Shown: positions 51 to 62,966, counted from the first letter of the stretch. The stretch: DNA of 64,000 bases from Boothiomyces macroporosus (GCA_027604185.1 JADGKB010000081.1:1-64000); one strand, 5' to 3'. Program-made: numbers and translations. The notes: a model not told the origin generated them from the letters alone.

Positions 51-2414
51 TTACGAGAGCATCTTTACACATCGACAGTGTGGATGGTTAATCTGACAAT
101 GGTTTAGAATATTTTCTAGTTTCTGGTCAAATTCTTGGTTCATTAGTTTCTTTCGTTTAACCCACTCTTCCTCCAACCTCTCCCAGCTTCGCTGCTTGCT
201 AGAAGCTAACTCGTCCCGCATCTTTTTAAGAGTCTCCACATATTTTTCTTTTATAGCCGCAGCCGATTCTGACGATTCTTTGGACAGTAGTCTAGTCTAT
301 GGTTAAAAAAAGATACCTTTAAAGATTCAATTTTCTGTTGAGAGAGTTTTCGATATTCTTCAAACTCGGATTTAATTCTAAACACCCTAGATTCAGCATT
401 GTGAATCTTTGTATTGGTGGTGTTGACGAGCTCTTGTTCGTACTTGTAGTATTCGTCCTTTAATTTGCCAATAGCTTTCTCATAAGCCTTTGTACATTCC
501 CTTTTCAATGTGTTGGAAAGAGTTTGAAGATTTTCTGAATGCTTGTCTTCCATTTCTCGAAGTTTCATTTCCATCTCTAATTTGGTTTTAGATTGATCTT
601 GGAAATGCTTGTTTTTCAGATTCTCCATCGTTTGCGCAAAACTATCTTGACTTTGTTTCTGAATTTGAGTTTGGTAATTGTGCATCAAAAGTGGATAATT
701 CGCCAATAGATCTGGAATTGACGTAATGTCAGAAGAATTTGATTTCGACTGAACAATCTGTAGTTCCTCCAGTAATTTTTGTCTGGATACTTCTGCCTCT
801 CTTGTCAGTCGCTTAATTTCATCATCAAAAGTGCTTCGCAGAGTTTGAATTTCTATAGCATGACTGCGATTTAACGACTCTAGAGTATTTTGATGTTGCT
901 TTTCTACCTCCAATCGATCTTCAGACTCCTTGATTGTAAGCTCTTGATTAAGGGCTGAAAGTTTCTGAACTAATTCCACAACAGCTTCCACCATCTGAAG
1001 GAGGGTCCTAGAAGATAGACTCTGAGATGGCATATTAACAACTGGAGATAAAATAGATATTAATCTTCTGTGGAATTCATTAATATCCATGTTGTTGTTG
1101 ATTTGTTGTTGCAGTGCATGAACTTTGGATTGAGACTCTTGCAATTGCGCACTAATTACTTCGTTACTCTCTGACAACTTTTCATTTTCAAGTTTAAGCT
1201 CCTTTACTAGCTTTTCAAAGCCCTTTCTTTCTTTTTCATTGCTCTCTTTTGTATGCTCGACTGTATCCAGCAAAGATTCCAAATTTTTTATCCTCGCTTC
1301 ATTCTTTGCATTTGTTTCTAAAACCAACTCATTTTCCCTCTGCATTTCACTAATAATTCTCTTCTTTTCAATGTCCAATTGACTTTCATACCAAGCTTTG
1401 ATTGTTTCTTTTTGTTTCGACAGTTCCAAGTGAAGCTCATGCAAACTTTCTTCTTTTTGCGAAAGCAATTCATTTTTGATTGCAAGTATATCCAATTCTT
1501 TTTCCCGTTCAAGATTCTGTCGAATTGCAGCCATTTGAGTCAAACTCTGATTGCAAGAATCTAATTTGGATTTGAGTTGTATAATTTCCTTTTCCAAAGA
1601 CCGCTGTTTTCCTCGTTCGATATCCTAAAATAAGATTTAAACATACAATCGCATCCTGAACAGAACTTTGTAATTGATCCTGGAAATTCCCCTCCAATCT
1701 TTCAATTTTTTCGTTTTGCGATTCTATATCAAATCAAAATGTACCAATTTGATTGTAGAATTCCTTGTTTTCCTGTACTAGTCTTTCGTTTAATGATCTT
1801 AGACTAAAGCATTCATTTTTCAATTCATCTATATATCGCTGAACCTGGGTTTCTTCAGATTCCACCGGTGTGTCGTTTTCAAAATGATTTAAAACAGGCT
1901 GTATTTCGCTAGGATATTCTTCCATTTTCAATCCTAATCCATTTGTGAAATCACTGCTCATGTCTTTTGGATTTGGCAGTTTAGGTCTAAATATATTGGA
2001 GCTTTGACTTGCTTCAAAGTTCTTGCTGGTTCTGGGCTGATCACTTATAACTGATGCTCGACTTTGCTTCAGGTGATCACTTGAATTTTTTGCTGATTCA
2101 TAAATGGTGGTAGGCGAATCTTTATGATCGACTGAGCCATCGCTAAGCGATAGCGATCTTTGACCAATACCAATAGAATTTTCCAAATCCTCTTCATACT
2201 CCTTGTTTAATAAATCTAAATCTATTTGATTCAAGTCCCAAGTCTCCCTCGTTATAGTGTCGTCTCTTTCTGGTTCTTCCTGATACTGTAAATCCAGCTG
2301 GGAAATATCCAAATCCAAGGATCCTTGATCCATTTCATCCTCATTATGATGGTGCACTGGTGAGTCTTTGATGAAATCAGAGAGAAATCTCTGGTAGGAG
2401 CTGGAGTCGATCAT
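51..2414 (-). CDS. Long coiled-coil protein, four exons
   Basis: I do not recognise a specific ortholog. Exons are 2414-1745, 1723-1647, 1624-317 and 296-51; the introns are 21, 22 and 20 nt and the spliced frame is open for 766 aa. The start is the ATG at 2414; the open frame extends upstream only from a TTG. Roughly the first 180 residues are acidic, Ser-rich and probably disordered. The rest is almost continuous heptad-like coiled coil rich in E, K, Q and L. The C-terminus ends in a short His/Cys-rich tail (NHPHCRCVKMLS). Centrosomal/basal-body scaffolds have this architecture, and several flagellar genes occur in the window, so a centriolar role is possible. That is inference only; myosin-tail-like or golgin proteins would look similar. 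Confidence 0.75.
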
Positions 2415-2516
2415 TTTTTGATTGCGAAAATTTGACAAAGTGACCCATCATTTCCTTTTAACCCAGTAAAATCAAAGCACTAATCAGTGGTAGATTTCTT
2501 TTATTACATACAGGGT

Positions 2517-4014
2517 TTAAGGCTCAGGCTCTCGTTGGGCTGGTTTCCAACGCTTCCATGAACTGAACAGAATATCAATCTCTTCCAACGGAACCCCTTT
2601 GGTTTCTGGCAGCTGCAAGAATATCCAACAAAAGAAAAAGGACAGCAGCCCTCCATATAAGAAATACACACCGCCATTTGGCATATCGCGGATGAGGAGT
2701 GGGGCTATCTTTACTGATAGAATATTAAAAATCATTTCAAAAATAGAATTAACCGTTTCTGATTTAGCACGAAGCTCCTGTGGATAGATTTCGCCTGAGT
2801 TATTGATGGATTACTTGGTATAACATAATGCATTACTCCCCAGGAACATGTGTATGCAGCCATAAAAATGTATATACAGAGAATGGCAAAATAACCTCCG
2901 ATGGTTAAAACTGTACTTTGAAAATACGCAGAGTAAATTCCAATATACAAGAAAGCAAGAGCCATAATCGCGGTTCCTGTCAACATCAAAGGCCGCCTGC
3001 CTTTGGTATCAATTACCCATAAACCTGGAAGCGTCATAACCATTTTCACCAATCCTACAAACCCAGCTGCAAACAAATCAGCTGTTCGACCTTGGATACC
3101 AAGATTTTCAAACATTGTTGGCGCAAAGTAGTTGATCAAGTTTTGACCAGAGAATTGTTGAAAAACAACTAATGGAATGCCAACAGCAAGTCTGTGCAGG
3201 TTCTTTTTTGTAATAACATCTATCCATTGTGATTTGTCATGATGATCCAAAGCTTTGGATATTTCCGCTGCTTCAGTCAAAAGATCTGGGTGGTTGCCAT
3301 CTAAATCTCTGATAGTCTTCAAGGCTTCCAGTGCTTCTGGATTCCGTGCTTTTGACATCAGCCATCTGGGTGATTCTGGAACAAAGGATAGGCCAAGCAA
3401 GAGGGCTAGGCAGGGAATAACTTGAATTGCAAGTGGTAATCTAAAAGCTAACTCACCTTGTACTTGCAATGCTGCAACAAAGTAGTTGATCCAATAGGAA
3501 AGAGCTATACCGCCTGCAACCATAATCTGCTGAATACCTAGTTCAGACCAAAAGTACCAATTAGGCGGCCTCGTATATTTGTGGGAGCGATTTCCGAATT
3601 GTACATGGCTATTGCAACCATCATGATCGCCAATCCAGTTCCTGCAACAAATCTACCAATATACACACTTGCCAAATTCCAGGCAAAGATTTGAAATATC
3701 GAGCCAATCAGGAATACACTAGCGGATATAGATATGGTCTTTTTTCTACCAAGGTTATCGTTCATGTACGATAAAACAAATACCGCAGGAATAGATCCAA
3801 TCAATAGTGAACTGGCAATATTCCCCGATAAATCGGCCTGGTTATGTGGGTTTATGCCTACCATCTCTTTGAAAGAATCAACATTGAGTATTCCAGCAAT
3901 AATACCAGAATCGTATCCCCAAGTAAACCCACCTAACGAGGTGCATATTGCGATCAAGTATACTTTGGAAATCATTGAACTTTTTCTCTCCAGGAGTGGT
4001 GCATTTTCATTCAT
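2517..4014 (-). CDS. MFS sugar porter, hexose transporter type
   Basis: Predicted plasma-membrane sugar transporter of the major facilitator superfamily, 485 aa. Exons are 4014-3558, 3537-2815 and 2794-2517, separated by two 20-nt introns. Family hallmarks are visible: GGFTWGYDSGIIAG in TM1, NLGRKKT in the TM2-3 loop, the PESPRWL motif after TM6, QQFSGQN in TM7, KGRRP in the TM8-9 loop and the C-terminal PETKG. It lies 246 bp downstream of a same-strand paralog (4261-5737), so this is a tandem pair. The substrate is probably a hexose but cannot be read from the sequence. The two copies differ in intron positions. Confidence 0.93.
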
Positions 4015-4260
4015 ACTTTCACAAGAATTATTTGGAAAGTTAAAACTTGGTCGATTATGAACGGCACCCGCAAAAAAGACGGGTCTTTGTTAATAGTGGG
4101 AAATTAGCGCTTGATGGTGTTAATCTTGGTTGAGAATGCTATTGTCAGGTCAATGCCAATCACATTACGTAACACAATCTCGATCAATCTTCCCGATCTG
4201 TATCGGATGATCAAATCGGACCCTGATTCGAAAAGCTTTCAATCAACAATTCTCTTTATT

Positions 4261-6696: not shown

Positions 6697-7727
6697 ATGG
6701 TTTCAATTAGCGACGCATTCAACGCTCTACAAGAAAACCAACAGTATGCGGTTTTTGCATTGCCTTTTGGAATAGTTGCCAGTTCAATTCTGCTTTACAA
6801 GCGGAACGAATTGTTTCCTACTTCAACTGCATTTGGAAAGCTCTTGGTTGCCCTGGCAGTGCTGGATTTATTGCAGGAAAGTAATTCTTATTAATTCAGT
6901 AATATGTGTGATCAGCTTGATTGCTCAAGACTGGGGTTCTTTAATCTACCTTCAAATCATCCCAAACGACCACTTTTTTGTTTACCAAAATTTTGTATTC
7001 ATTTCCGGATTTCTTTATGATATCGCTTACCTCACTCCGTTTTACTTGGTAACATGCATTATAATGATCGCCTACTACGTGATTTGCAAGAATGGTATAT
7101 TCAACAGGGTACATTGGCTGGCGATATTGTTTGCCTCAAGTGTAGTCCCGCTAATTTACTCAATTTACTTTGATTTGTACTGCAACTATGGTATGCTCTA
7201 CCTTCTACCGGGTTTAAATTTGTAAATACTCCTAATCTAGCTATGATGTTCAGACCAAGCAGAATATTGCTTCAGCGATAATAGAAATTTCACCGTCGAT
7301 AATCATTTTCATATTTGCTGTTCTTAGTAGAATTCAGCTCCAAAAAAACTTGGAATTTGTGCCTTTGGGTAAATTTGAAGGAAAGGAACTCCGATACAAC
7401 GCTGTTGATATTCAAATGATCAACATCATTGAAGCGATTACGTTTACCAATCTACTGGTCTCCCTTCCTGATGTGGTCTTGGCCGGCATTAGTGCAAACG
7501 TTGATTTGCATGACTCGTTAATAGATGAAGCCTGGTTTCAAGGCTTGTATAACCTCCAAGCAATAACTTCCTCCACAAAAGGATTTTGGCACTTGGCTGC
7601 CATTTATATCTCTAAATACCTCACTAGACACAAAGCGAAAGAAAGTAGCCTTAACTCTGCAACCTTGGAGAACGGTCCAACAATGCCAACTATCGAGTGG
7701 CAAACAACACAAAAAGAACTTGCTTAG
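6697..7727 (+). CDS. Seven-transmembrane (GPCR-like) protein
   Basis: Predicted integral membrane protein of 330 aa with seven hydrophobic segments. Exons are 6697-6880, 6900-7221 and 7241-7727; both introns are 19 nt, among the shortest here. TM1 is near residues 20-37 and is followed by TSTAFGKLLVALAVLDLL (TM2). The last helix ends in KGFWHLAAIYISKYL. The C-terminus PTIEWQTTQKELA closely resembles the tail of the 46790-47746 protein (METIQWTISQKIDNV), so these two form a subfamily of the window's 7TM family. A receptor function is inferred from topology alone; no ligand can be suggested. The stop is 17 bp from the end of the convergent CABLES-like gene. Confidence 0.8.
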
Positions 7728-7744
7728 AATAAACATATATTACA

Positions 7745-9036
7745 TTAGGGTTCGGATTCGAAATCGTTATCCTTCATATTGGCTAATCGGTTTAAATGTG
7801 GGGCAACTTCTCTTAATGGCAGGAATAAATTGAACTCTAACGCAGAGTACACTGAAAACTCGTTTGCGTATACATCTTTACGAGAAACTTCGAGTTCCCG
7901 CTCCACAGTCTCCAACAGCTTTGAATAATCTGTTTCTTTTGGATCATTGACTTTGGCTGCCAATAATAGACAAATAGCTGGCATTAATTGAATTTACCAC
8001 CGATTAATTTTCTGTTTGCCCTATTTACAAAGTTTTTAATAATGAGCTTTTCAAGATATACGTATGCAAACGCGATACTTGACAGTTCTAGATTCTTGGT
8101 TAGTATTAAATACATTTGACAATCCAATTTTTCCTAGCGATTTTTTGAGATTGCGTATCTGAGTTAAAGTGATTGTTGCGTCAACTCCAGGATGTGTATC
8201 TTTGAAATGCTGGTTAATTTCCTTTTTCAATTCCGATGCTGTAGATGGCTGAATAATTGTCCCCAAGAATCCAGGTAAGGTGATAACGGTTTTGTTTCTT
8301 GCAGTTTTCAAATCTGGATTATCTAAAAAGTTTGGATCATAAGCATTGGTATCGGGCAGATACGACATTGACAATGAGCCAGACGGTTCCAAGTAATTCG
8401 CAAAAGACTCTGCCTGAATTAAATTTCAAGAACCTTTTTTCTCTTTACTGCATCTATCGCAGACATGGCTGACGCTAATCCCATCATTCCTAGATATGGA
8501 CCCAAGTGAGATTTACCTGGATTCTTTTTCACTTTGCGCAGTTTAACATCTTTAAGAGGTATCATTGAAAACAAGGTAACTGGCCCCTGTGTTAAATAAG
8601 TGTACTCCTGGGTAGGTAAATACTTTTAAATTATCCACCAGAGATACTTCACTGGAGCTGATGCTTCGATTCGGCGAAGAAACCAATCTAACATTAATCC
8701 AAAGTACTTTATCAGACTCTTCCTTTGTAGTTTCTGATAGTTTGAATTCCGAGAAATGCTGATATCCTCGTCTGATTTCCATACCGATTTTTCAATCTTC
8801 TCTATCGGCGATATATTTGATTCTACAGAACAAGAGATTTGATTCAAAAAGTCAATCGCTGCTTTATCTCGAAGTGAAGTGCTCTGACTATACGGTTTAA
8901 GACTGAACGATGACTGCGGGATCAATATTGGTTCGGCTGGTGTTTCTCCCTTTTCAGGGCTAGCCGTGTTGAAATCTGACGATATTGAATTTAGAAATGC
9001 TAGTGCTGCAACTTTCCGAGATGAGTCTCCGCCCAT
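7745..9036 (-). CDS. CABLES-like cyclin-fold protein
   Basis: Resembles metazoan CABLES1/2 (Cdk5 and Abl enzyme substrate), which link CDKs to kinases through a C-terminal cyclin-like box. Six exons are inferred: 9036-8785, 8758-8624, 8604-8434, 8413-8114, 8094-7998 and 7977-7745, giving 395 aa. Recognisable blocks are AALAFLNSIS near the N-terminus, AYDPNFLDNPDL, then the cyclin fold AFAYVYLEKLI, NRANRKLIGAICLLLAAK and EFSVYSALEFNLFLP. Introns are 26, 19, 20, 19 and 20 nt. The second could be 16 nt if the first CAG were used; 19 nt fits the window's size rule. It is divergent from the AGC kinase at 9218 across a 181-bp shared promoter region. The family call is fairly safe because the order of motifs matches. 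Confidence 0.8.
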
Positions 9037-9217
9037 CGATAAAAAAATTTAAAACAACTTTAAAATTTAGACTTTTTGAAATAGTCACTCTTGTGACTTT
9101 AAGTTTCCTCTAATTCTCCGTTAATGTTTCACTTGTTTCGCTGTGGGGATTTCACAAGCCTCCTGAAATGGAATGAAAAAGACAAAACCTGAAGCCACAT
9201 TGTTTTTCCCCTCTTAA

Positions 9218-10754
<1,537 letters not shown>

Positions 10755-10946
10755 TTTTAATATATTTTTGTTTTTATCGAGTTAATTTCCGTCAGGTGCC
10801 AGTGTTGACTGAAACAAATGATGTCACTTTAACTTTCTCATGGAGGCCCAGACAAAAAGACCACAAACAGCCAGACCAGTACCAAAGGAATCTTGGTGTA
10901 AAAATTTAGATATATCACGGCCGAGATCTGCCGGTACGCTTTCCTT

Positions 10947-11864
10947 ATGTTAGGTAGAAAAGTCTCGTTTCACATTCCACACGCTCCTCCGTCTGAAAAA
11001 CCTCCGGAAACAGATTCATTCATGTTGGGTAGAGTATACCCTATTCATGCTCCAAGTAGATCACCATCTGTGCCTCCGAGTGTGACCGACAGTATAGCAA
11101 CTTCAGAATGGGATGATTTCGAAGCATTACCAGAAAATCCATCTATTTTACTTCGAAAAGTAGCAAGTAATGCTTTATTAACATTGTTACCGGGAAAAGT
11201 CGTCCTGGCTCTGCAGCAAGCTTTGAACCACCTTCAGCTTCAGAACAACCTGTCAAGCTGATACAGAGGAGACCGGCTTCAGCTTCGCGACCTTTGACAT
11301 ACATTCCTTCCTACTCTATTAAAACACAATCAGTCCGATTTAATGTGGAAAAGTATAGAATTGAACAGATTACTTTAAGAAGAATTAAACATGTAATTGA
11401 ATGCAAAACAGCAAAAATAGAGCATTTGTCAATGATAGATTCACTGCAATCAAGGTAATTCAATTGCTTAATCCAGCGAATTGCCTTCAGAGTTAATACA
11501 GTCGATATTTGGCCCACAAATAACCACATTACAGGCTGTTAAAGTCGCGTTAATGAAAACGATAGAAGCGCTAAAATCACCCGCTATGCAAGCATTTAGT
11601 CAATCAGCCAAATCTAGCTATATATCACTTAATAACACTCCAGAATTAAATGAAAATATCGTCAAAACAGTGTCAAATAGATCCCAAAGCGCAAAATTCC
11701 AGAGTAAGGTTACTACTCCCCAGTCAATCCTCGACATGCTAGCGGAAGTTGAAAAGTACAATAAACGAAAGCAGAAAAAGAAGGTTGTGAATGGCAAAAT
11801 AACAATTTGCGATGATGGTGACCATAAACAAATTAAAACTAAATCTGTGATTAAAACAAAGTAA
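10947..11864 (+). CDS. Unknown protein, gene model partly unresolved
   Basis: Two open blocks belong to one gene but need splicing. The first runs from the ATG at 10947 and contains FEALPENPSILLRKVASNALL. The last (from 11477) encodes ELIQSIFGPQ and a Lys-rich tail. A clear 22-nt intron lies at 11455-11476. The other junction is uncertain; a 20-nt intron at 11252-11271 (GTC...GAG) restores frame and gives 291 aa, but its acceptor is weak. No family is recognised. The LPENPSILLR segment faintly recalls the LPETLAIPFR and LPLAIALPFR segments of two other proteins in this window (42943-43797 and 50403-51035). Confidence 0.5.
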
Positions 11865-11890
11865 TAAAACTGTATTATCTAATAATATAA

Positions 11891-13071
11891 CTATACAACA
11901 AATCTAACAGAGTGTCTTTCTTTGGCTTTTGAAAAACTTAGAAAACTTTTCACGCTGTACAGAAAAACACCAAGAGCAACATAAACGTACATGAATCTAG
12001 AGTAAACAAATTTGGATATTTGGCCAACAGCGGAACTTTTTTCACTCGACGAGGTGGAGGCGGTTGTGTCAGTTGTATCTATAGGTCTATTTCTTGCTGT
12101 GACTTGGATTAGGTCAGGATCCGACATTGTGTGTCCTGGCGATCTCGATCTATGCTCATCAATTATGAAATTCCTTCCATTGAACGTAACTGGGCCTTTA
12201 AGTGTGAGTTTTGGTTCAAGATTTCGTTTCTTTAGTCCAAAATATATAGCTACAAAGTGCAAAAGCCCAAAAGAGCCAACAAGGATTTCAGTAACTGATC
12301 TCGAAAGTGCGTCAAACGTATCAACTGTGTCCTGAGAGAGCTGTTGGTTGATGGCACTTATTATATGCCAAGTGATAGATATTACAAGCGGCAAGAAAAT
12401 AAGTACATAAACTGCGGCGAAATTTCGAACAAAATTGATCATCATGAGAGAAGCCTGGTGTTGATACACCTCTCTAAATTCAAATGTGTTTGATGAAAGT
12501 AATGATTGTCTGTATCTGGCTTGTTTTTGCAATTCCTTGTAGCAAATAAAGGAGGAAAAGGCCATCATGACAATTGAAATCCAAATGATTATCGAATCAA
12601 CTGTATCCGCAATTGCGTTTCCGCCAGCCGTGACTACGATAAGTGGGATGCTCAACACCAGGCACCCAATAGTAATCCTCTCCCAGTTGAAATTTTCAAT
12701 AGATCCGTTGAATACAATGATTTTGAATGGTATATAGCAAATTGCGAATCCAAGGAAGCATATTGTGTGGAACATGTAGTTGAATACAATCAGAAAAGCG
12801 AATTCCAAAGGGTATCGATACTGATCCAATTCCCCGCGATGAAAAATAATAATCATTAGCGAAAATAGCGATACTGGTGTTAGCGATCGATAACCTCCAA
12901 GGAAAATATCCGCAACTGCGAGAGATCTAATGAGCGAAAAGAAGGCATTCTTGGGCAATGTAATAGTTTTCTATTGTTAGCGATATTTACAGAGAAAAGA
13001 AAGCCGCCAAAAATGATTCCAATAAGGGATGAAATCAGCCCAGTCAATGAAAATCCTATTGGAATTTGCAT
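11891..13071 (-). CDS. Seven-transmembrane (GPCR-like) protein, cluster member 1
   Basis: 386-aa polytopic membrane protein. Exon 1 (13071-12991, 27 aa) is TM1; a 20-nt phase-0 intron (12971-12990) precedes exon 2 (12970-11891). Family signatures: LPKNAFFSLI after TM1, AVAD in TM2, CYIPFKIIVFNGSI at the inner end of TM3, YQHQASLMMINFVRNFA leading into TM6, and GLLHFVAIYFGLK closing TM7. The long Ser/Thr-rich tail (RSRSPGHTM; TTDTTASTSSSEKSS) looks like a phosphorylatable cytoplasmic tail. An extra hydrophobic stretch near the C-terminus (FMYVYVALGVFLY) may be an eighth segment. The start is the first in-frame ATG, immediately before TM1. Confidence 0.85.
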
Positions 13072-13351
13072 TTTTTTCTGGAGCAAAAAGGAAACCAAGC
13101 ACAGGGACTGTTCAAATCAGAAACGGTTCACAAAATCATAAGGAGAATGAGCTTCAATGGCTTTAGAGCACGGGTACTTGTCTTCATCTCCGGCACTGTA
13201 GTGCACCCATAGTCTTCTTTAGAATATTCTTCGTGTGATGACATTTTAAGGACAGCACGCAGAGATTAGAGCTGATCTCCCAATTCGAGATCCAATTTTC
13301 AGCACTGAGCTGATGTCAGTTCTTTATAGAAACCAAAAACTATAAAAACCG

Positions 13352-14420: not shown

Positions 14421-14692
14421 TTTGAATTTCTAAATTTTTGTAAACTTGTGTCCTAAAATAGGAATCGAAAATGGTAACAGAAATCATGGGGCCTTTGGAG
14501 CGGTCAATTAGTAACACCAGCCCAAACCCCTTTTAGTACAATAGAATCGAAAAAGGAAAATGGAAAGCAAAAATGTAAAACTGATTGACATTACGAATAG
14601 CTTATGGTGGTACTTTTATTTCTGATAGTGCCATGTGTAACCGTAGGCTGAATCGCCAACCATATGACTCAAATTTGATGAAAGATGGACAC

Positions 14693-15595: not shown

Positions 15596-15706
15596 TAGAA
15601 ACGAAAATCTGTTAAGTTCGCCTGCCTGACAAGTTCAAGTTTGTGGGAGCAAAGAACTAAACAAGATCGAAACGCCAAGGAGTAGTTTACAAAAATTTAT
15701 TTACAA

Positions 15707-17920: not shown

Positions 17921-17973
17921 ATTCGTCTACTGTAAAATGAAGGGAAAATTACGATTCTTTGTGAAATAAGAGG

Positions 17974-19182: not shown

Positions 19183-19199
19183 ATTGATAGAATACAAAT

Positions 19200-48371: not shown

Positions 48372-50308
48372 ATGGAAATCGTATACGTCTATCAAAAAAA
48401 GCGAAAGGAATTTGGAAAGCAAGCTATGCTTTCAGATAAACTAGCTCAAATAAACTTGGATATTCCTCCGGATCCAGCTTACATAAAAAACTACACTGAA
48501 AGGAATCCAACACACACAGAAGCACAATGCAGTCCCGAAAAATCTGAACATGAAGTACTAAAAATCTAATTGCAAGGTAAATACGGAAAGTTATGTTGTC
48601 AGCAACAGAGGTATTCTACATACACAGGGTGGATGGCCAAAGGATGTAGACGCAAGTGATGTTGAACACACAATTAGATTCAGAAAAAAGATTGAAAAGG
48701 ATGAAGAGTACATGAGGGTAATTAAAAATCTTGGAGAGGTACTTGAAAGGTTAACCTAGACTATGGAACATACCATCAAACAAAACAACGCAATTGACAT
48801 TTATGAAGAGTACTTTCAGGAGACTCCTGATACAATGGCAGCCGAAGCACCGTCTGCAAAATCATTGAATGTTTACAGGTTTGGTTATTCTAATTATGAG
48901 GGATCCAAACACAATCAAGAGAGCAGCAACTTACCTATCTTGGTATCCAGAAGAAGGCCATCGTATTGCAGTAGCGTACTCGGTTTTACAATTTCAAGGA
49001 ATGCCCGCAAATATGTCGCTTGACTCTTACATCTGGGACGTTGAAAATCCAAATGCCCCAGAGCAAACCCTGACTCCACTCTCCCCACTAGTTTGCATTA
49101 AATATAACCCAAAAGATCCACATATCTTGGTTGGTGGCTCATACAACGGTTTACTATGTACCTGAAAATTAATTTTAGCTTATTGGGACACCAGGAAAGG
49201 GGCATTCCCAGTTGACTCTTCTCCACTAGAAAAAAGTCACCGAGACCCAGTTTACAATGTAGCATGGGTGCAATCAAAGTCGGGTAAGAACATTTTTATA
49301 CAGGCTGTGAATTCTTTTCAGTCTCTACTGACGGACAAGCACTATGGTGGGATATAAGAAAGCTTAGTGAACCTACAGAATCAATGCTGATTGATCCAGA
49401 AAAGAACGGAAACATTGTTGGTGGAACAGTATTAGATTTTGAAACTACTATGGTAAGCATTATCTGATTTAGCCAACTAAATTCATGATTGGTGGTGAAA
49501 ACGGATCTATTTTCATGTGCAACAAGAAAGCCAAAACACCTGGTGATAAAATCACGCATGTTTATCCAGGACATCATGGACCTGTTTATGCCTTGCAGGT
49601 AATGGAAAGCTAATGATAGCGAAATCCATTCTTCTTGAAAAACTTTTTAACTGTTGGTGACTGGAAAGCCCAAATTTGGTCAGAAGATATTAGGTCCCCA
49701 ATTATGTCTACCAAGTACAGCACTAGTTACTTGACTGACGGTTGCTGGAGTGCTACTAGACCATCAGTGTTCTTTACATCAAAAATGGATGGAAGTATTG
49801 ACATTTGGGACTACATGTTCAAACAAGTTGAACCTACATACACTGTTCAGGTAAAGTTCTTTTTAATTCTAGGTCGGAAATTCGCCGCTTCACTCTATCA
49901 AAGCACAGGAACACGGAAAGCTGTTGGCCGCTTCTGCTAGAGATGGTTCAATGACATTATTTGAACTTTCAGAAGGGCTATACAAATTGCAAAACAACGA
50001 AAAGAAAATCTTTTCTGAAGTATATTTGACTAATATAGATGCTTGAAAGAGAGGCAAAGAGAGAAAAGACTTTAGAAAGTGCTGTCAGGGAAAAGAGGAT
50101 AAAGGCAGCCCAGAAGCGTCCAAATTCTGCGTTTATGCCGTCTGGAGCGGCATTGGAAGAATTGTTAAAGCAAGCAGACGATGACTTTTTCAACTTTATT
50201 GATGATGGGAGTGGCAAAATCTCTGAGGAAGCAGCAGCTCGAGCGCGTGAATACGATATGAATGAGACTAAAGAAATTCCACAATCCCAAGAGCAAGAAC
50301 AAGCCTAA
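48372..50308 (+). CDS. DNAI2: Outer-arm dynein intermediate chain 2 (DNAI2/IC2)
   Basis: 582-aa WD-repeat protein of the axonemal outer dynein arm, needed for flagellar beating. Ten exons with nine introns of 19-22 nt: 48555-48576, 48739-48759, 48879-48900, 49158-49178, 49284-49303, 49453-49472, 49599-49619, 49851-49872 and 50020-50038. The start [17 protein letters not shown] matches the conserved DNAI2 N-terminus. Further blocks: [87 protein letters not shown] and [17 protein letters not shown]. Every intron removal restores a known family block, which makes this the best calibration set for the tiny introns here. Confidence 0.97.
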
Positions 50309-50402: not shown

Positions 50403-51035
50403 ATGATACAGGACTACTCTCAAACTCCATTAAATATATTAGCTGGAATTGCAGTCAGTTTATTGATCTCATATATTGCCTGGCAGGTAAAACTAATTTG
50501 ACATTTGACATTAGAAACCCTATATGAATCCAACAAACTCGATTTAACCTGGAAAGAATTTGCAGAATATTTACACTCTGAAGCTCCAAAAGAAAATATC
50601 ACATCGAGACTGTCAGTAGAAGGGGTCTCCCAATTGGTACAAAGCGTCGTTGCTGAAACAGAGCAACTAGCAAATGGAATCGTATCAAAAACGCAACCAA
50701 AAATTTCAAACGATCCAATAGAGCCAGCTCACTTGCATATATTGAAAAGGGTGGCTGACATTGCCTCTAGTCCAATTAAGGGCTATGAAGAAACGAAACC
50801 AAATATGTACGTCAACAGAAGACAAAAGCCGGTTGAAATAGCAAACACAACCGATTCCATTCCAAAGATATTTAACCATGAGAAAAATCCGATTGATGAC
50901 TTACCAGAAACCCTTGCTATTCCATTTCGCGTTTCAGAGTCACTTTGGGACGGTGCGGTTAATATTGCAGCTGGCTCTATCAATTTCTTTGCACTTGCTC
51001 CCATCAGATACGGGAGGCAGATCTTGCGAAAATAA
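50403..51035 (+). CDS. Single-pass membrane protein with LPxxxAxPFR domain; 5' junction unresolved
   Basis: Relative of the 42943-43797 protein. The ATG at 50403 opens MIQDYSQTPLNILAG and a hydrophobic span (IAVSLLISYIAW), ending at a GTAAAAC donor. The main frame (from about 50511) encodes ETLYESNKLDLTWKEF, a polar middle, and the C-terminal block DDLPETLAIPFRVSESLWDG. The obvious intron (50487-50514, GT-AG, 28 nt) contains a perfect 7-bp tandem duplication (tttgaca twice) but joins the two parts out of frame. Either an unusual acceptor is used or this copy is broken or mis-sequenced. Function unknown. Confidence 0.5.
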
Positions 51036-51117: not shown

Positions 51118-54100
51118 ATGGAACGCCCAGAATTTGAAATAATGCGGAAAATGAAGCGGGATTCTTCAAGTCATTCAATGAAAATATATCCGGATGGCGA
51201 GGAAGAACCAAACGAGCAACCTGTTAAACCACAGCATGTTTCCAATCCATCGGAACTATTATACAATGAGGAGGAAAGAGATTCATTCCCCGCATTCCTG
51301 CCAAGTGACATTCCTCAGCAGGTGAAGGAACTTGAGACACCACTAATACCACGAGATGGTGAGCATTCGCGACGAGGGTCGGAACCGACAAAATTAGACT
51401 ATGGCAGGAAAAGTATAGATGGAGAAACTTCATTCAAGAATACCACGACCTCACGGGATGGGCAAAAGTTGTCGCTTGACCAAAAGTTATACAGGTCAAG
51501 GAGCTCTTTCAACCTTGTAGAAAAAGTGTCCTTCTCATTCATGAATGAAATAATGATTGATGGAAAAAATAGAGACATCTTGATTTCGCAATATCCTCCA
51601 ATCGAGCAAGTTGATAATTCATTACTTTTGGCCAAAGAAATAATGTCGAGATGGAATAGCGAAGTAGATAGGAAGGGCTCGTCTGCAAAGTTAGGGACTG
51701 TGTTGGTATACCTTTTTTGATTCTAGCGTAAAATATTTGGATTTCAGTTCATGCTATCAGGATTCGCGTATTTCGTTGAAACCATCTTAAAAGTATCCGA
51801 ATCTTACGTGTTTGGACTGTTGTTACAGTGGTTTCAACACTATGATACCGAAAGCTTAAACACTGGTCTTTTATACGCTGGAATTATGTCTGCGCTTGTA
51901 CTGGTACACTCTGTGCTCAATCAGTACAAGTTTTACTCTGTAATTCTTTTTGATTATAGGCTACGAGAATTGGAATGCAAGTAAGAGTCTCTTTAGTGTC
52001 TGCTATATTTGCAAAATGTATGCGTCTGCCTGTTGCAAGTGCATACTCTTCTGCACAAATACTGAGTTTAATTAGCAACGATGTGCAAAAGTTTGAAGAT
52101 GCTTCTGGCTTTCTACATTTTCTATGGCTGGGACCAATTGAAGCCTGTATTATCACCTACTTTATTTACGAGCAAATTGGAGTGGCAGCCTTTGCAGCCA
52201 TTGTAGCACTTTTCATTCTCATACCAATTCAAGCTACATTTGGCTCGACCTTTGCAAACATTCGCAAGAAAACCAACATTTTCAGGGACGACAGGATCAA
52301 GACACTTTCAGATATGATAGCGGGAATGATAGTTGTCAAAGTAAAATGTTTATAACTTAGCTTTATGCATGGGAGAAACCATTTTGTGAAAAGATTGATT
52401 CGATAAGACAAAAAGAAATTCTAAAAATCAGAAAGGCATCTATCCTGAAAGCTGTTAATGAAGCACTGTTCTTTTCATCCTCAGGTGTCTATTTATTAAC
52501 AAAGCATTCATTTCATTATCGGCATTTGTTGTTTTCAAGCTTTTAGGAGGGACGTTAGATCCATCAAGGGTACTTTAGCCTCTAAATCCCAGGTGTTTGT
52601 AACTGTTACGTATCTGCAGACAGTCAGGATGACAATGACGAATTTATTTTCCAAGGGGTATCAGTTCAATTCGGAATGTAAAATTGCTTTACAGAGAATT
52701 GAAGCACTGTTTAAATTAAAGGAGGTAAACCTAGTTACAGCTACCGACGTGGCAGATGAAGCAATAGCATATTTAAACGATCCAAAGGTCAATATTGTCA
52801 TGAAAGATGCTTGCTTTTCGTGGAAGTTTAATCAACGCAAGACTTTACAAAGCAGCGACATGGTTCTAAAAGATATAAATATAAGAATTCACAAGGGCGA
52901 GTTAGTTGGAGGTAAGTCTGTTTGATATAGTGTGTGGACCAGTAGGAGGAGGAAAAAGTTCGTTTTTGAATGCAATACTGGGGGAGTTGGAGTGCATTCA
53001 AGGAAAAATAGGGTTGAGGTCGAAAAATATAGCATATGTTTCCCAAAATCCTTGGCTCTTGGCAGGCACTATTAGAAACAACATTTTGTTTGGCAAATCC
53101 TACAAAGAAGATTGGTTTAAAGAGGTGGTGAAGGCATGCTCTCTGGATTCAGACTTTGAACATTTTCCAGACAAAGAAAATACCATAATTGGAGAAAGAG
53201 GATTGGAGTTAAGTGGAGGGCAAAGAGCGAGAATTGCCCTGGCCAGAGCAGTGTATGCTGACGCAGAGATCTACTTGTTGGATGACCCCTTGGCTGCAGT
53301 TGACCCAAAGGTTGGAAAGCATTTGTTTAGATATTGTATCAGTGGAGTTTTGAAAAAAAAGGTTAGATATGCTAATTGTAGACTGTAATTCTAGTGACGC
53401 ACTTGATTCAATACATACAGCAATGTGACACGGTGGTACTGCTAGAAGGCGGAAAGATGACTGCTACAGGAAACTATGCCAAAATATTAGGGGTTAACAC
53501 CTCAAAATTTGCATCTTCATTACGAAATCTAGCGACATCTTCCTCCATGGACAATATTCAAGCGTATGCAACAATGAATGCTTCTAAATTTCCTAAATTG
53601 GCTTCAATTGCATCATCTATGGATAAAGAATTGACCAGTGGAAAGTATGCCTCCATGGAAAAAATCAACTTTGCTGATCCATCCGACTTTACCGACTCTC
53701 AAGAATTCAGGAACTCGTTAGCTAAAAGAAGGAGTTCTGTAAAGACAGGTCAAGAAGATTTAGGAATTATTATGAAATCAGAAGAATCCGTAGCCCAGGG
53801 ATCCATGTCAATCAAATCGTATTGGGGATATTTCCGGGCAGGTTCGTCAATATTGGGAATTTTAATATTATTTTTTACCCTAATATTGGGTCAATCCTCG
53901 CTAATTGCAACAGACTGGTGGTTATCGAGTTGGTCTGCTCTCTCATCAACAGAACAGAATGACAATTATGTGCATTTGGGTATTTATATAGCACTAGGTG
54001 CGTTCACAGTCTTTATTGCTGTTACTCGAGCAATATCGTTCTTTTTAATTTGCTTGTCTGCATCTGAAGTTATGTTCAAAACCATGACAAACAGAGTATT

Positions 54101-55689
54101 TCACGCACCTATCTACTTTTTCCAAAGTAATCCCCAAGGTAGAATAATGAAGTAAAATTGACTTGACATAGCCGCTTTACCAAAGACATTAGTCTGACGG
54201 ATGAAAACTTGCCCCAAACATTCTTTGATTTGGTTCAACGATCGTTCATGATTATTGGCACACTCGTCATCGCTGCAATCGTAGTTCCATATGTTCTTAT
54301 AGTTATACCATTTTTGATGGTTATATTTATGTACTTTAGAAAAAGCTACATTGGCTCCGCCAGACAGATGAAAAGAATGGATGCAATAACAAGGTCACCA
54401 ATGTAATTAATACTTTACAATAGATTTTCATTCTTTACAACTTCTATCGACGGTAAAGCAGTAATTAGGGCATATCGAATGAGAGAAAGGTTTGAAAACG
54501 AAGTATGCCGGCTGCAAAATGACAATACTAGAGTGTATTTTTCATATTCATGCGCTGGAAGGTGGTTGGGCATTCGCTTGGATATGCTTGCTGCAGTATT
54601 CTTTACTGGCATAGTATTTTTCTGTGTGTGTTTGAACAGCTCTCTGGGCTTTTCTCCATCAGCAATGGGATTGCTAATTAGTTATATTCTACAACTTATA
54701 GGGCTTCTGCAATGGACTGTTAGACAAAGCGGTGAAGTGGAAAATTTGATGGTATCAACCGAAAGGTAACGATTAGTTTAACATCAGAATCCTGGAATAT
54801 ATGGAGCTACCTCAAGAAAAGGTTCAAAAAGACAAGGAAGTGCCGGAACATTGGCCAACTGCGGGACACATTGTGTTGAACGATTTGTCAATGCGATACT
54901 CCAATTCCGCTGGACTAGTGCTCAAAAACCTCAATTATGATATCCCTGGAGGGAAAAAGGTGGGAATAGTTGGTCGCACAGGTGCAGGAAAGAGCTCGTT
55001 CATCAATGCTTTATTCAGATTGAATGAACCATTAATTCCAGGCTCAATTATGATTGACAACGTCAGCACAAGTGATATGAATCTTCAAACATTGCGGTCT
55101 AGAATTGCCATCATTCCACAAGAGCCTTTCTGCTTTAAAGGAAGCGTCAGATTTAACATTGATCCGCTTGGGAAATACAGCGACAAAGAATTGTGGGATA
55201 CATTGGGGATGGTAGAATTGAGGGAAGTTGTAAAAGATTTGAAGGGACAACTTGATCACGAAATTTCCGAGAACGGGGGTAATTTATCAGTTGGGGAGCG
55301 TCAATTGATATGTTTAGCTAGAGCTATCCTAAAGAAATCAAAACTCATCGTCATGGATGAAGCTACTTCCTCTATTGATGTAACCACTGATCAAATTATT
55401 CATGAAATTGTAAGCGAAGGCGAAGGTGGTGCCTTTGCAAACTCTACAGTTTTAACTATTGCTCATAGACTTCAAACTATCATAGATTACGACATTATTC
55501 TGTTTTTGGACCAAGGAGAACTTGTCGAAGCAGGTTTTATACGTTTTAATTTTAGGCTCCCCATATGAACTAATTTCAAAAGACGTTCGCGATCCAGATG
55601 CCAGGTTTGCCAGATTGGTAAACGAGCTTGACGTTGAAACCCGACAATCTTTAATTGAGAAAGTAATGTTCAAGATGAGCCGTCACTGA
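51118..55689 (+). CDS. ABCC/MRP-type ABC transporter
   Basis: 1447-aa full-length exporter with two membrane domains and two nucleotide-binding domains. Twelve exons with eleven introns of 19-23 nt (51706-51726, 51940-51959, 52341-52360, 52485-52504, 52570-52592, 52912-52930, 53362-53381, 54152-54171, 54403-54423, 54766-54787, 55533-55554). NBD1: Walker A GPVGGGKSS, Q-loop YVSQNPWLLAGTIRNNILFG, signature LSGGQRARIALARA, Walker B IYLLDDPLAAVD. NBD2: Walker A GRTGAGKSS, signature LSVGERQLICLARA, Walker B LIVMDEATSSID, H-loop IAHRLQT. The second signature starts LSVGE, as is usual for C subfamily NBD2. The long N-terminal cytoplasmic region replaces the extra TMD0 of some MRPs. Likely exports organic anions or conjugates. 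Confidence 0.96.
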
Positions 55690-55775: not shown

Positions 55776-56622
55776 TCAAACACGGGACAATACGGATTCA
55801 TATGTAGGAACCATATACTTGATATTTATGAAGGCATCTTCGCCTCCTGTCAACTCAAATTTCTCTAAAGTTTCTTGAATTAGATCACCAATGTTTTCCC
55901 GTTTTTGTTGAGAATAGTAGATTCCATCGCCAAGGTTCACTTTGTTAGCGCGATATTACCATTCTTGTTTTTAAATAGATTAAAAATTGGAAGGATTTGG
56001 CGGTAATATGGAACCAATGCCTCACCTACCATGTCTGCTGATTCCACCAAATGCTGTAGCACTTTCAGTGTAGTCGTGATGACATGAATATTACGTGTAT
56101 TGAGAGCTTCTAACTATCAATCGAATATTACTCTTGATTGGAATAATAAGTTGTGGAACTACAGGCAAAATTTTGCTTCCTCCTTTATCTAAAAGATCGT
56201 GAATGCCTTGCCTCGCGAGAAAAGCGTAAGGCTCGTCAGTTTCACACAACCCAGAAAAGAAAAGTGGTAGATAGTGATGGTAATCTAATTTTTCGATATC
56301 GACCTAGAATTAAACACGTATTACCTTCCAGTTAATCTTGTTTCCTTTGGCATCGTGATTTACAGAAATCGGAAAGTCCCCGCGGTCGTACAGCTTTCTG
56401 AAACCTATTCGTTATAGTATGGTTACTAGTTTTTTCTTTGTGGTTATCTCCGAAAATGTTATCCTCTAGCTGTTAAATAGACTGAATACTTGCTACTGTG
56501 GCAGTTTTTCTTGGAGTGAATGCTCCAGCTTTTGGCGGATGCGATCCAGGAGCTGCAAAATAACCTCCTGCTCCTGCTATTTTTAATTTATCACCGTTTG
56601 GATGAAGCACTTTGTGAGACAT
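55776..56622 (-). CDS. PACRG: PACRG, axonemal inner-junction protein
   Basis: 245-aa Parkin co-regulated gene product, which joins the A and B tubules of flagellar doublet microtubules. Exons: 56622-56490, 56465-56427, 56404-56325, 56303-56132, 56109-55960 and 55939-55776. Introns are 24 (alternatively 27), 22, 21, 22 and 20 nt. Matches: [97 protein letters not shown] and [12 protein letters not shown]. In the 56110-56131 intron a TAG at 18 nt is skipped for one at 22 nt, which restores the KALNTRN block. No single long ORF exposes this gene because its exons are so short. Confidence 0.95.
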
Positions 56623-56794: not shown

Positions 56795-57525
56795 ATGTCC
56801 AACAGACCATCTTCAAGAGCTTCCACAGAACAAAACGGACCAAGCTCCACAGGAGGAGCCACAACAATCAAACCAGTACAAGTTAAACTAGTTTTGCTTG
56901 GAGAAGCGGCAGTCGGAAAATCCTCTATTGTTCTACGATTTGTAAACGGCGAGTTCCAAGACAACAAAGAGCCTACTATCGGAGCAGCTTTCCTCACGCA
57001 AAAATGTAAACTTGACGACAAGATTATTAAATTTGAAATTTGGGATACAGCAGGTCAAGAAAGATTCCACTCGCTCGCCCCAATGTATTACCGTAATGCT
57101 CAAGCAGCCGTAGTTGTTTATGACATTACCAAATCAGTATATTTCTACTAATATAGGCGTCTTTAGAAAAGGCGAAAGCTTGGGTAAAGGAGCTTCAAAG
57201 ACAAGCAAACCCAAATATTGTTATTGCCCTTGTCGGAAATAAACTGGATTTACAAGCTAACCGAGAAGTAACTTCTGAAGAAGCAGAAGAGTACGCAAAA
57301 GAATCTGGATTATTATTCTTGGAGGCTTCCGCTAAAACTGGAGAATCGGTTGGTGAAATTTTCACTGATATTGGTAATACCGTATTTGACTTAGCTAAAA
57401 AAATCCCTCTAGAAAACCTTGCCCAAACTAGATCTCGCACTGGATTGAACAATCAAGCTGGAAATGGAAGGGTGGATTTAAATAGCGGACCGGCTGAAGC
57501 ACAACCAGGCAACTGTGCCTGTTAA
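56795..57525 (+). CDS. Rab5-type small GTPase
   Basis: 236-aa early-endosome Rab GTPase. Exons 56795-57136 and 57157-57525 flank a 20-nt intron. GTP-binding motifs: GEAAVGKSS (G1), [11 protein letters not shown] with the effector Thr (typical of Rab5), [18 protein letters not shown] (G3, catalytic Gln retained), GNKLDL (G4) and EASAKTG (G5). The C-terminus ends in CAC, a double-geranylgeranyl site. A Ser/Thr-rich N-terminal extension of about 28 residues precedes the GTPase fold. It recruits endosomal fusion machinery when GTP-bound. Confidence 0.95.
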
Positions 57526-59788: not shown

Positions 59789-59800
59789 TATGTAAATCTT

Positions 59801-61943: not shown

Positions 61944-62138
61944 TATTTGCCCAGAATGATAGAAAATAAATCAATACTTTTGGACTGTTAATCTATTTTG
62001 TGATATTTTTATAGCTTACGAGAATTTGCCCCGCTAACTTGAACTTGGCAATTCAACTGGTAAAACACCACCATTCAACGTCATAAGAATTCAATCGGAC
62101 ATTTCTATTGCCATTATCGGACATTAAAAGTTCAACGT

Positions 62139-62191
62139 ATGCTGTGGCGCATAAAAGAGTGATGACACCAATGACTCACCACCAAAGATAA
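62139..62191 (+). promoter_or_regulatory. Two tiny upstream ORFs and a Gcn4/AP-1 site before the bZIP gene
   Basis: uORF1 (62139-62162) has seven codons. Its stop overlaps the start of uORF2 (62162-62191, nine codons) as TGATG. Inside uORF2 lies TGACTCA (62172-62178), the site bound by Gcn4/AP-1-type bZIP factors. Either the region is transcribed leader, giving GCN4/ATF4-style translational control, or it is promoter, giving autoregulation. The transcript start is unknown, so both are inference. Confidence 0.4.
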
Positions 62192-62413
62192 AAGGCAAGA
62201 AATTTCTGTTGATCTACGTTCCATCTGGAGTTTCTTTCATCCCAAAAGAAACTTTTAAATTAGTTGAAAGAGAATCTACTTGTCTGACAACTATTAACTA
62301 AGCGCCAAACTACGCTCTCTCTCGAACTGCTGCACAACTCTCTTCCAAGGAAGATAAAAATTAACTCTTTAAACCTTCAAGATAGCCAATTTGTCTCCTC
62401 TAGCGAAATTAGA

Positions 62414-62966
62414 ATGCCAGAATCTGCCTTTTCCAACTCCACCTACACACATCCAAGACTCTCAGGCCGTCCCACCAGACAACCCAATAGATAATCATCT
62501 ACTGTCCTTTGAAGAATTTTTTAACGACCCGTTTGCAACAAACACCTATTCACTTGACGATTTCCTTAACGAACAACCAATCACTGCAGAGAATTTATTT
62601 GGGTACTCTCCTTCCACTATTGCAGCTTCCCCATTACAGTCCATCAGCACTCCAGCGCCATCCATTGTAAATACTCCACTGCAAAAACCAAGAAAGAGAA
62701 AATCAATAGTAGGACAAAAGAAACGTAAAGAACAAACCCTAAATCACGAGCAATTACTTGCCGATATCGAAGAAAAGCGAAAACGAAATACTGACAGTGC
62801 ACGAAGATCCCGTGAAAGAAAAGCTTTGAGAGTTTTAGAACTAGAACGCCAGCTAGCCGCGTCTGAAAACCAGAGAAAGATTATCCAACAGCAACTCGAT
62901 CAACTGATTGCTGAAAAGAAAGCATGGCAACTACGAGACAGTATGTTGCCTACTGAACTATTATAA
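62414..62966 (+). CDS. Gcn4-like bZIP transcription factor
   Basis: 176-aa bZIP protein. Exon 1 (62414-62468) starts at the only suitable ATG (MPESAFSNSTY); a 22-nt intron lies at 62469-62490; exon 2 is 62491-62966. The unspliced long frame has no ATG before the zipper, so the intron is required. The acidic, aromatic N-terminus (SFEEFFNDPF, YSLDDFLNEQ) looks like an activation domain. The basic region RNTDSARRSRERKALR has the NxxxARRSR pattern of Gcn4, followed by leucines in LELERQLAASENQRKIIQQQ at heptad spacing. It probably controls amino-acid or stress-response genes. Confidence 0.88.

Follow-up and report, generated by a model that had tools for sequence, protein, structure and literature searches.

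How are introns recognised and removed when the donor, the branch point and the acceptor almost touch? The question is raised by a 64,000-nucleotide (nt) stretch of the genome of Boothiomyces macroporosus, a chytrid of the order Rhizophydiales, family Terramycetaceae. This stretch, hereafter the window, comprises bases 1–64000 of contig C81 in an assembly of 15,203,306 bases and 216 contigs. An earlier note on this DNA had placed, by eye, about 90 introns in some 29 genes, nearly all of them 19–23 nt long, and had taken the sequence for that of a fungal-type nuclear genome, as indeed it is. Our gene models place 99 introns in 29 of the 40 genes of the window, and 96 of these introns are 19–23 nt long. 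The genome of B. macroporosus appears to have almost exclusively introns of this size, near the shortest known from any organism. We are confident that they are ordinary U2-type (GT-AG) introns that have shrunk genome-wide to a minimum of about 20 nt and are removed by the major spliceosome via intron definition.

Intron lengths in the window and across the genome

We analyzed the window together with an outside sample of 20 stretches of 10 kb from 19 other contigs, placed at round coordinates without regard to content, which brought the total to 264 kb. The coding model was trained on long open frames, and the donor and acceptor models were seeded from frame-restoring joins of 19–22 nt that start with GTA; the final gene models carry a length prior, and all models presuppose GT-AG ends. 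Expectation-maximization with a loose intron penalty was abandoned because it drifted toward false introns at all lengths. With the length prior, the window contains 23 introns of 19 nt, 32 of 20 nt, 24 of 21 nt and 16 of 22 nt, plus single introns of 23, 24, 57 and 77 nt, the last two of which (50458–50514 and 11167–11243) had no homology support that we could see. The few exceptions listed in the earlier note have mostly dissolved: the CABLES-like gene, for which it gave a 26-nt intron, is modelled with five introns of 19–20 nt, no gene model holds an intron of 28 nt, and the first PACRG intron, given as 24 or 27 nt, is modelled as 24 nt in an unconserved stretch.

The same size class dominates outside the window. 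The earlier note would have been contradicted by lengths centring well above 23 nt in other parts of the genome; among the 305 introns modelled in the 200 kb of the outside sample, 299 are 19–23 nt long, one is 24 nt and five are 52–102 nt. Introns occur in all 21 stretches, and 395 of the 404 modelled introns fall at 19–23 nt, placing nearly all of them in one class below about 25 nt, the mark of an ultrashort-intron genome. They lie in 212.7 kb of modelled coding sequence (1.9 introns per kb), which by extrapolation to 15.2 Mb suggests a genome total of about 20,000–23,000; a passage in a survey of fungal genomes gives a mean of 3.93 introns per kb for two Chytridiomycota (PMC8476143). The introns are richer in A+T than the coding sequence (71% and 60%). 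Among modelled introns, no Paramecium-like depletion of lengths divisible by three (3n) is visible at 21 nt, which is the second commonest length. The share of introns with an in-frame stop is somewhat higher among those of 3n length (69 of 94) than among the others (177 of 302), a difference from which nothing is concluded because the gene finder would miss 3n introns that lack stops.

Counts made without splice motifs or without a length prior yielded the same size class. When GT..AG joins of 12–120 nt that re-establish a long open frame and have coding potential in either flank were counted motif-free over the 264 kb, they numbered 22, 67, 30, 15 and 12 at 19, 20, 21, 22 and 23 nt, respectively. 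Five control dinucleotide pairs gave at most 12 joins at any of these lengths, so that GT..AG joins are in excess at 19–22 nt and merely tie the highest control at 23 nt. Beyond 25 nt there was no clear excess over controls, apart from a small one at 31 nt (14 joins versus at most 11). A cruder frame-restoration count made on the window alone also favours the short GT..AG joins over control dinucleotides. A gene finder with a flat length prior (uniform over 12–250 nt), its splice motifs still seeded from 19–22-nt joins, placed 245 of 339 introns at 19–23 nt (49, 109, 52, 27 and 8 at the successive lengths), none at 17, 18, 24 or 25 nt, and 94 above 25 nt. Four decoy signal sets produced 4–6 introns at 19–23 nt and 148–202 above 25 nt, which puts the 94 longer introns at or below the level of false joins. 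In addition, we searched the genome with the pattern GTAAT...TTAAC...TAG, leaving the spacing free (16–48 nt); of the first 100 of its 225 matches (contigs C1–C33), 74 were 20–23 nt long, where chance would put a 16% share at 19–23 nt.

Protein homology pointed to the same junctions. For the 24 introns of DNAI2, HID1 and a TSNAXIP1-like gene we compared 186 candidates, comprising all open GT-AG choices of 8–150 nt with both ends within 60 nt, as well as no splice, with the remaining introns of the gene held fixed and the whole protein scored against three to five relatives from other genera. Homology alone ranked a 19–22-nt splice first for all 24 introns, with narrow margins for HID1 intron 3 (7798 vs 7791) and TSNAXIP1-like intron 5 (5520 vs 5509). 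An alternative 60-residue scoring window agreed in 18 of the 24 but rewarded models that drop residues, and was replaced by whole-protein scoring. Spliced DNAI2 aligns across all nine junctions to DNAI2 chain 8j07 (696 bits), and also to a 79%-identical Batrachochytrium protein. Alignments without gaps span four of six junctions in the PDE9-like protein (PDE9A chain 2yy2, residues 144–456) and four of five in PACRG (chain 7rro, residues 49–242). The alignment of the RRP43-like protein to RRP43 is continuous across all four junctions, and that of the ABCC protein to ABCC4 chain 8bjf, inspected over nine of its eleven junctions, is continuous across eight and has a three-residue gap next to the other one. 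All nine spliced proteins of one set contain Pfam domains, as do three of nine of another, in which the six unmatched proteins belong to a membrane-protein family described below; Cyclin_N covers residues 265–371 of the spliced CABLES-like protein, crossing two junctions.

Intron anatomy and the splicing machinery

The introns share the form GTAATT...YTRAY...TAG. In the donor profile of 397 introns, G stands at position −1 in 49%, followed by GT and then A (94%), A (59%), T (42%) and T (54%), and the acceptors of 396 introns are TAG (261), CAG (72), AAG (56) and GAG (7). A strict TRAY motif occurs in 333 of the 396, compared with 36% in shuffled interiors, and its A lies at position −6 in 143 introns and at −7 in 139 (282 of 396 together). 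The GTA donors, TRAY motif and TAG, CAG or AAG ends thus agree with the description given in the earlier note. Because the acceptor model covers the branch stretch, we recounted the motif on the motif-free joins, where a TRAY A stood at −6 or −7 in 91 of 134 joins of 19–22 nt versus 78 of 871 joins of 61–120 nt; the corresponding counts were 5 of 12 at 23 nt, 4 of 38 at 24–30 nt and 46 of 308 at 31–60 nt. Among the 24 homology-tested introns, 19 have a strict TRAY, 17 of them at −6 or −7, with the A at intron position 14–18. The modelled branch A lies mostly at position 14–15 in introns of 19–20 nt and shifts to 15–17 in longer ones, and in the 74 pattern matches of 20–23 nt it never falls before position 14, even though the pattern would have admitted it as early as position 10. 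A T-rich stretch lies upstream, not downstream, of the putative branch.

These features are those of U2-type introns, with GT-AG termini and, near the 3′ end, a branch motif that matches the GUAGUA of U2. U12-type introns are marked by the donor motif ATATCCTT / GTATCCTT, which does not agree with the donor consensus GTAATT of the 397 introns. We also considered the internal eliminated sequences of ciliates, which are TA-bounded segments removed from DNA; the segments seen here run GTA...AG with a branch motif, and this candidate was rejected.

We propose that the GTAATT donor is read by U1 and then by U6, and that U2 pairs with YTRAY and presents its A at about position 14–16, in which case the lariat loop would measure only about 14–16 nt. 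The 3′ end would follow some 5–6 nt past the branch A, leaving no room between them for a polypyrimidine tract. A donor helix of about the first six bases and a branch helix of about seven would leave hardly any free nucleotides before the A, and the spacing suggests that each intron is recognised as one compact unit. End-to-end packing of the 5′-splice-site helix against the branch helix would then set the floor at 19 nt; judged from the spacing, the sharp lower edges, at 19 nt and at branch position 14, look like such a packing limit. The ceiling could be set by deletion pressure together with poorer recognition of longer introns.

The machinery that this would require was sought in genome searches covering the U1, U2, U6 and U12 small nuclear RNAs (snRNAs) and six proteins, SF1, U2AF65, Slu7, Prp18, Cwc25 and Isy1. 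Two U2 genes and one U6 gene matched over the cut-off and one U1 gene was matched, all with canonical recognition sequences: GTAGTA in U2, ACAGAGA in U6 and ACTTACCTG for U1, with ATACTTACCTG read in the U1 gene. The U1 and U2 genes match their Rfam models over the full length. The two U2 genes (C80:60682–60874 and C178:9607–9797) have a mostly common 5′ half and differing 3′ halves. The search for U12 snRNA gave no match in this genome, and none in the control genomes either. The SF1 found has KRKTRWG near its N-terminus and a KH region that aligns to SF1 chains, and the U2AF65 found carries a KLNYWD motif and two RRMs, each of which aligns to U2AF65 chains; Isy1, Slu7 and Prp18 are also present. 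The first 14 residues of Cwc25 are identical to the CWC25 homolog chain 5yzg and its glycine plug is intact, so that a loss of the plug in the manner of Stentor was rejected. Yeast depends less on Slu7 and Prp18 for 3′ sites that are close to the branch; Boothiomyces, with its short distance from branch to 3′ end, keeps both. A loss of Slu7, Prp18 or U2AF65 owing to the nearness of the branch was likewise rejected, all three having been found. Altogether, the six proteins and three major snRNAs sought, a small part of the components of a spliceosome, were all recovered, and the introns modelled in the splicing-factor genes themselves are 19–24 nt long, except for one in Isy1.

Several observations weigh against ordinary introns served by an ordinary spliceosome. 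The U1 match scores 68.8 bits, 0.7 under the Rfam cut-off of 69.5, and the U2AF65 match scores 230.7 bits, under the NCBIfam cut-off of 310.3. The donor matches U1 weakly, with G at +5 in just 19% of introns, and a strict TRAY is missing from 63 of the 396 modelled introns and from 5 of the 24 homology-tested ones. The Isy1 model contains a 46-nt intron and a doubtful start. The motif models were seeded from 19–22-nt joins and every model presupposes GT-AG ends, so that the seeding is partly built into the model-based motif counts. The 225 matches of the genome-wide pattern compare with 200 for a backwards control, a total that by itself shows no enrichment, and the evidence from the pattern is therefore the concentration of lengths only. 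Finally, the HID1 model deposited for B. macroporosus uses none of our six introns exactly. The N-terminus of Isy1 is, besides that of Cwc25, the branching-factor end to which the study of Stentor (PMC9505925) draws attention; we could model the Isy1 start (C39, about 29.87–30.75 kb) only as two 20-nt introns around a single-base exon, for which a sequence error or an unseen start is the likelier explanation.

Alternative explanations and known ultrashort-intron systems

Many of the segments shift the frame or hold stops, and the assembly has repeated blocks, as might be expected if they were indels in decaying genes or assembly errors that break frames. Such damage would not be expected to yield recurring lengths, GTA starts and a branch motif, let alone the same pattern in all 21 sampled stretches, and the spliced proteins align across the junctions to animal proteins of the PDB and, for DNAI2, to the Batrachochytrium protein mentioned above; we give this explanation almost no credence. 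Equally hard to credit is that the mRNA retains the segments and that translation passes over them by ribosome bypassing or frameshifting, since GT..AG ends and a TRAY at a near-constant distance from the 3′ end fit recognition by a spliceosome, whose canonical snRNAs and splicing factors are present in the genome.

Two further alternatives accept splicing and concern the population or the origin of the introns. Our methods might have missed many normal fungal introns of 50–250 nt, in which case the population would be mixed, as the seven modelled introns of 52–102 nt (two of them in the window) and the 46-nt intron of Isy1 might indicate. We regard this as improbable: with flat lengths the introns above 25 nt leave no excess once compared with decoys, the motif-free joins show little beyond controls in that range, and every homology-tested intron is 19–22 nt long. 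A few long introns, introns above 250 nt or introns in untranslated regions may nevertheless exist. The very uniform length would also be compatible with recent insertions of a fixed-size, introner-like element in place of old introns that shrank, an alternative to which we give slightly more weight, though still little. In deposited proteins of Terramyces, Globomyces and Kappamyces, several of these intron sites coincide with gaps or odd termini, suggesting older, shared introns, and four paralogues in the window with 22–30% identity keep a phase-0 intron at one site, with lengths of 20, 21, 21 and 21 nt. Intron length thus seems to have been held through deep divergence, in keeping with old U2-type introns that shrank.

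The earlier note named some ciliates and nucleomorphs as bearers of introns this short, and the literature cited here describes them in heterotrich ciliates, nucleomorphs and also mikrocytids. The nucleomorph of Bigelowiella natans has introns of 18–21 nt that lack a clear branch motif, together with shrunken U1 and U5 (PMC6461891), and for chlorarachniophyte nucleomorphs including Gymnochlora a range of 18–24 nt is given (PMC4035089). Boothiomyces resembles these in its many AT-rich GT-AG introns of nearly the same size (about 3 per kb of coding sequence there, 1.9 here); in contrast to such relict endosymbiont nuclei, it has a fungal nucleus, U1 and U2 that match Rfam over the full length, and a clear YTRAY. 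The introns of the ciliate Stentor coeruleus measure 15–16 nt, with the branch A at position 10–11, canonical U1 and U2 and a missing Cwc25 plug (PMC9505925). Both organisms are free-living and share a GUAAUU-like donor, a near-constant branch A, a 5-nt tail and canonical U1 and U2 motifs, whereas Stentor has a shorter loop, no strong branch consensus and no plug, and Boothiomyces has its A at about position 14–16, a YTRAY motif and an intact plug. Mikrocytids, with introns of 16–17 nt and 17–19 spliceosomal proteins (PMC10245619), likewise have a single very narrow size class, but Mikrocytos mackini is a parasite with 224 introns, and Boothiomyces has about 400 in 264 kb and all six splicing proteins that were sought. 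A reduced spliceosome accompanies ultrashort introns in nucleomorphs and mikrocytids but not in Stentor. Paramecium has introns of 25–45 nt, with 3n lengths under pressure (PMC5014332); it and Nyctotherus (about 25 nt) share with Boothiomyces the many introns in one narrow class, but the Boothiomyces introns are shorter and a 3n length ranks second among them. Microsporidia, relatives of fungi that likewise have short introns, have few or no introns and a reduced spliceosome (PMC10245619), unlike the intron-rich Boothiomyces.

Among fungi, a survey of 644 genomes cites a mean of 63 nt as an example of short introns (PMC8476143). A 2025 paper counts a Trichomonas intron of 23 nt with the shortest on record and names only those of Stentor and B. 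natans as comparable (PMC12316389). Among the papers listed in our literature searches, which hardly covered subscription journals and may have missed the genome's own paper, we recognised no report of such introns in a chytrid or any other fungus. As far as that literature shows, B. macroporosus would be the first described fungus, and the first opisthokont, with a genome-wide class of ultrashort introns, a new lineage for a known but rare kind of genome in which a fungal nucleus is combined with thousands of introns (by extrapolation) and splicing factors that look ordinary where checked. The species was isolated from soil on pollen (it is listed from soil and pine pollen in PMC11210171) and has relatives in public databases. 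The finding makes testable what the smallest intron acceptable to an ordinary spliceosome is, whether altered branching factors such as those proposed for Stentor are needed, and by what process thousands of introns become shorter in concert within a fungal lineage.

Relatives, deposited annotation and other features of the window

The HID1 protein of the window is 100% identical to the deposited B. macroporosus protein HK103_007047 in the best local alignment, which covers 41% of the query, and the other exons in common are identical by eye. At the introns the deposited model departs from ours: seven residues are gone after intron 1, the joining of donor 2 to acceptor 4 loses two exons, and the reading frame runs on through intron 5 to a stop (VIAILI*). 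The next-closest deposited proteins come from Terramyces, Globomyces and Kappamyces, and the Terramyces HID1 protein likewise lacks the two exons and ends early in a similar way. Five of the nine junctions in our TSNAXIP1-like model are matched by the deposited protein HK103_007050, which differs at the other four, and its Terramyces counterpart is continuous across all nine. Thus, part of the public annotation already makes implicit use of the tiny introns, and elsewhere they break the models. In the two deposited B. macroporosus models that we compared, exons or residues are missing, or the protein ends too soon, at such introns, and the protein sets of the clade therefore probably carry such errors. 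No Boothiomyces DNAI2 was among the matches listed in a protein search whose size limits could let a fragment escape. Deposited DNAI2 proteins of relatives have gaps at intron sites, at site 4 in Globomyces and, in Kappamyces, around site 5 and at exactly the exon between sites 8 and 9, which hints that the same introns, perhaps of the same length class, occur in both genera. It is an evenly balanced proposition that a branch of the Rhizophydiales, including at least Boothiomyces and Terramyces and perhaps Globomyces and Kappamyces, has nearly all its introns at about 20 nt and a machinery neither reduced nor visibly altered. If so, a lariat loop of 14 nt would lie within the reach of the standard fungal spliceosome even with the Cwc25 plug intact, and introns could become ultrashort without any reduction of the machinery.

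Table 1 Modelled introns and intron-bearing genes of the window, with the evidence for each
Feature	Position	Strand	Length (nt)	Evidence
DNAI2 intron 1	48555–48576	+	22	top homology choice
DNAI2 intron 2	48739–48759	+	21	top homology choice
DNAI2 intron 3	48879–48900	+	22	top homology choice
DNAI2 intron 4	49158–49178	+	21	top homology choice; Globomyces protein lacks residues here
DNAI2 intron 5	49284–49303	+	20	top homology choice; Kappamyces protein lacks residues around here
DNAI2 intron 6	49453–49472	+	20	top homology choice
DNAI2 intron 7	49599–49619	+	21	top homology choice
DNAI2 intron 8	49851–49872	+	22	top homology choice; Kappamyces protein lacks exactly exon 8–9
DNAI2 intron 9	50020–50038	+	19	top homology choice
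HID1 intron 1	39931–39950	+	20	top homology choice
HID1 intron 2	40316–40336	+	21	top homology choice; deposited model joins donor 2 to acceptor 4
HID1 intron 3	40453–40474	+	22	top homology choice, narrow margin
HID1 intron 4	40638–40657	+	20	top homology choice
HID1 intron 5	41579–41599	+	21	top homology choice; deposited model reads through to stop
HID1 intron 6	41834–41852	+	19	top homology choice
TSNAXIP1-like intron 1	46633–46652	-	20	top homology choice
TSNAXIP1-like intron 2	46356–46376	-	21	top homology choice
TSNAXIP1-like intron 3	45993–46011	-	19	top homology choice; HK103_007050 agrees
TSNAXIP1-like intron 4	45731–45750	-	20	top homology choice; HK103_007050 agrees
TSNAXIP1-like intron 5	45535–45553	-	19	top homology choice, narrow margin; HK103_007050 agrees
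TSNAXIP1-like intron 6	45270–45288	-	19	top homology choice; HK103_007050 agrees
TSNAXIP1-like intron 7	44950–44969	-	20	top homology choice; HK103_007050 agrees
TSNAXIP1-like intron 8	44777–44796	-	20	top homology choice; HK103_007050 lacks exon 8–9
TSNAXIP1-like intron 9	44630–44650	-	21	top homology choice
PDE9-like intron 1	26621–26639	+	19	gene model only
PDE9-like intron 2	26696–26716	+	21	gene model only
PDE9-like intron 3	26978–26996	+	19	gap-free alignment to 2yy2
PDE9-like intron 4	27127–27147	+	21	gap-free alignment to 2yy2
PDE9-like intron 5	27511–27529	+	19	gap-free alignment to 2yy2
PDE9-like intron 6	27654–27672	+	19	gap-free alignment to 2yy2
PACRG intron 1	56466–56489	-	24	gene model only; N-terminus outside alignment
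PACRG intron 2	56405–56426	-	22	gap-free alignment to 7rro
PACRG intron 3	56304–56324	-	21	gap-free alignment to 7rro
PACRG intron 4	56110–56131	-	22	gap-free alignment to 7rro
PACRG intron 5	55940–55959	-	20	gap-free alignment to 7rro
RRP43-like (exosome) intron 1	38792–38810	+	19	continuous RRP43 alignment
RRP43-like intron 2	39103–39122	+	20	continuous RRP43 alignment
RRP43-like intron 3	39200–39220	+	21	continuous RRP43 alignment
RRP43-like intron 4	39333–39352	+	20	continuous RRP43 alignment; gap about 5 residues downstream
ABCC intron 1	51706–51726	+	21	ABCC4 alignment; 3-residue gap adjoins junction
ABCC intron 2	51940–51959	+	20	continuous alignment to 8bjf
ABCC intron 3	52341–52360	+	20	continuous alignment to 8bjf
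ABCC intron 4	52485–52504	+	20	continuous alignment to 8bjf
ABCC intron 5	52570–52592	+	23	continuous alignment to 8bjf
ABCC intron 6	52912–52930	+	19	continuous alignment to 8bjf
ABCC intron 7	53362–53381	+	20	continuous alignment to 8bjf
ABCC intron 8	54152–54171	+	20	continuous alignment to 8bjf
ABCC intron 9	54403–54423	+	21	continuous alignment to 8bjf
ABCC intron 10	54766–54787	+	22	gene model
ABCC intron 11	55534–55555	+	22	gene model
CABLES-like cyclin-domain gene	7745–9036	-		gene model, five introns
CABLES-like introns	8688–8707, 8587–8605, 8414–8433, 8095–8113, 7978–7997	-	19–20	gene model
Protein kinase gene	9218–10754	+		Pfam domain and gene model, four introns
Protein kinase introns	9690–9709, 9778–9798, 10031–10052, 10334–10355	+	20–22	gene model
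Rab-like GTPase gene	56795–57525	+		Pfam domain and gene model
Rab-like GTPase introns	57137–57156, 57374–57394	+		Pfam domain and gene model
Membrane-protein family, common phase-0 intron	12971–12990	-	20	just before x-x-(L/I)P stretch, as in three other members
Membrane-protein family, common phase-0 intron	14298–14318	-	21	at the site common to the paralogues
Membrane-protein family, common phase-0 intron	16574–16594	-	21	at the site common to the paralogues
Membrane-protein family, common phase-0 intron	21150–21170	-	21	at the site common to the paralogues
Phase-0 intron, similar place	47624–47644	-	21	distant possible member (17–21% identity), membership uncertain
Remaining modelled introns	spread over 51–62966			gene models

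The paralogues that share the phase-0 intron site belong to a larger group. Eight models of about 270–390 residues, at 6697–21248 and 46790–47746, look like one diverged family with multiple membrane spans (17–30% identity), mostly in tandem, the genes at 6.7 and 46.8 kb being the most distant members; a Pfam search of six of the eight gave no match. The model at 14693–15526 on the minus strand starts at the phase-0 intron site of its paralogues and therefore probably lacks an upstream exon. Near the end of the window, a proposed 22-nt intron at 62469–62490 in a bZIP-like gene, named by eye, is the weakest, with a GTCCC donor and no clear branch motif. The assembly also contains large duplicated blocks, either real or assembly duplicates, in which matches recur at fixed spacings within contigs (45,067 nt twice in C20, 42,184 in C36, 21,618 in C3, 42,596 in C2, 53,656 in C10 and 17,982 in C69) and between them, C1 pairing with C173 and C49 with C100, the latter two both carrying Cwc25.

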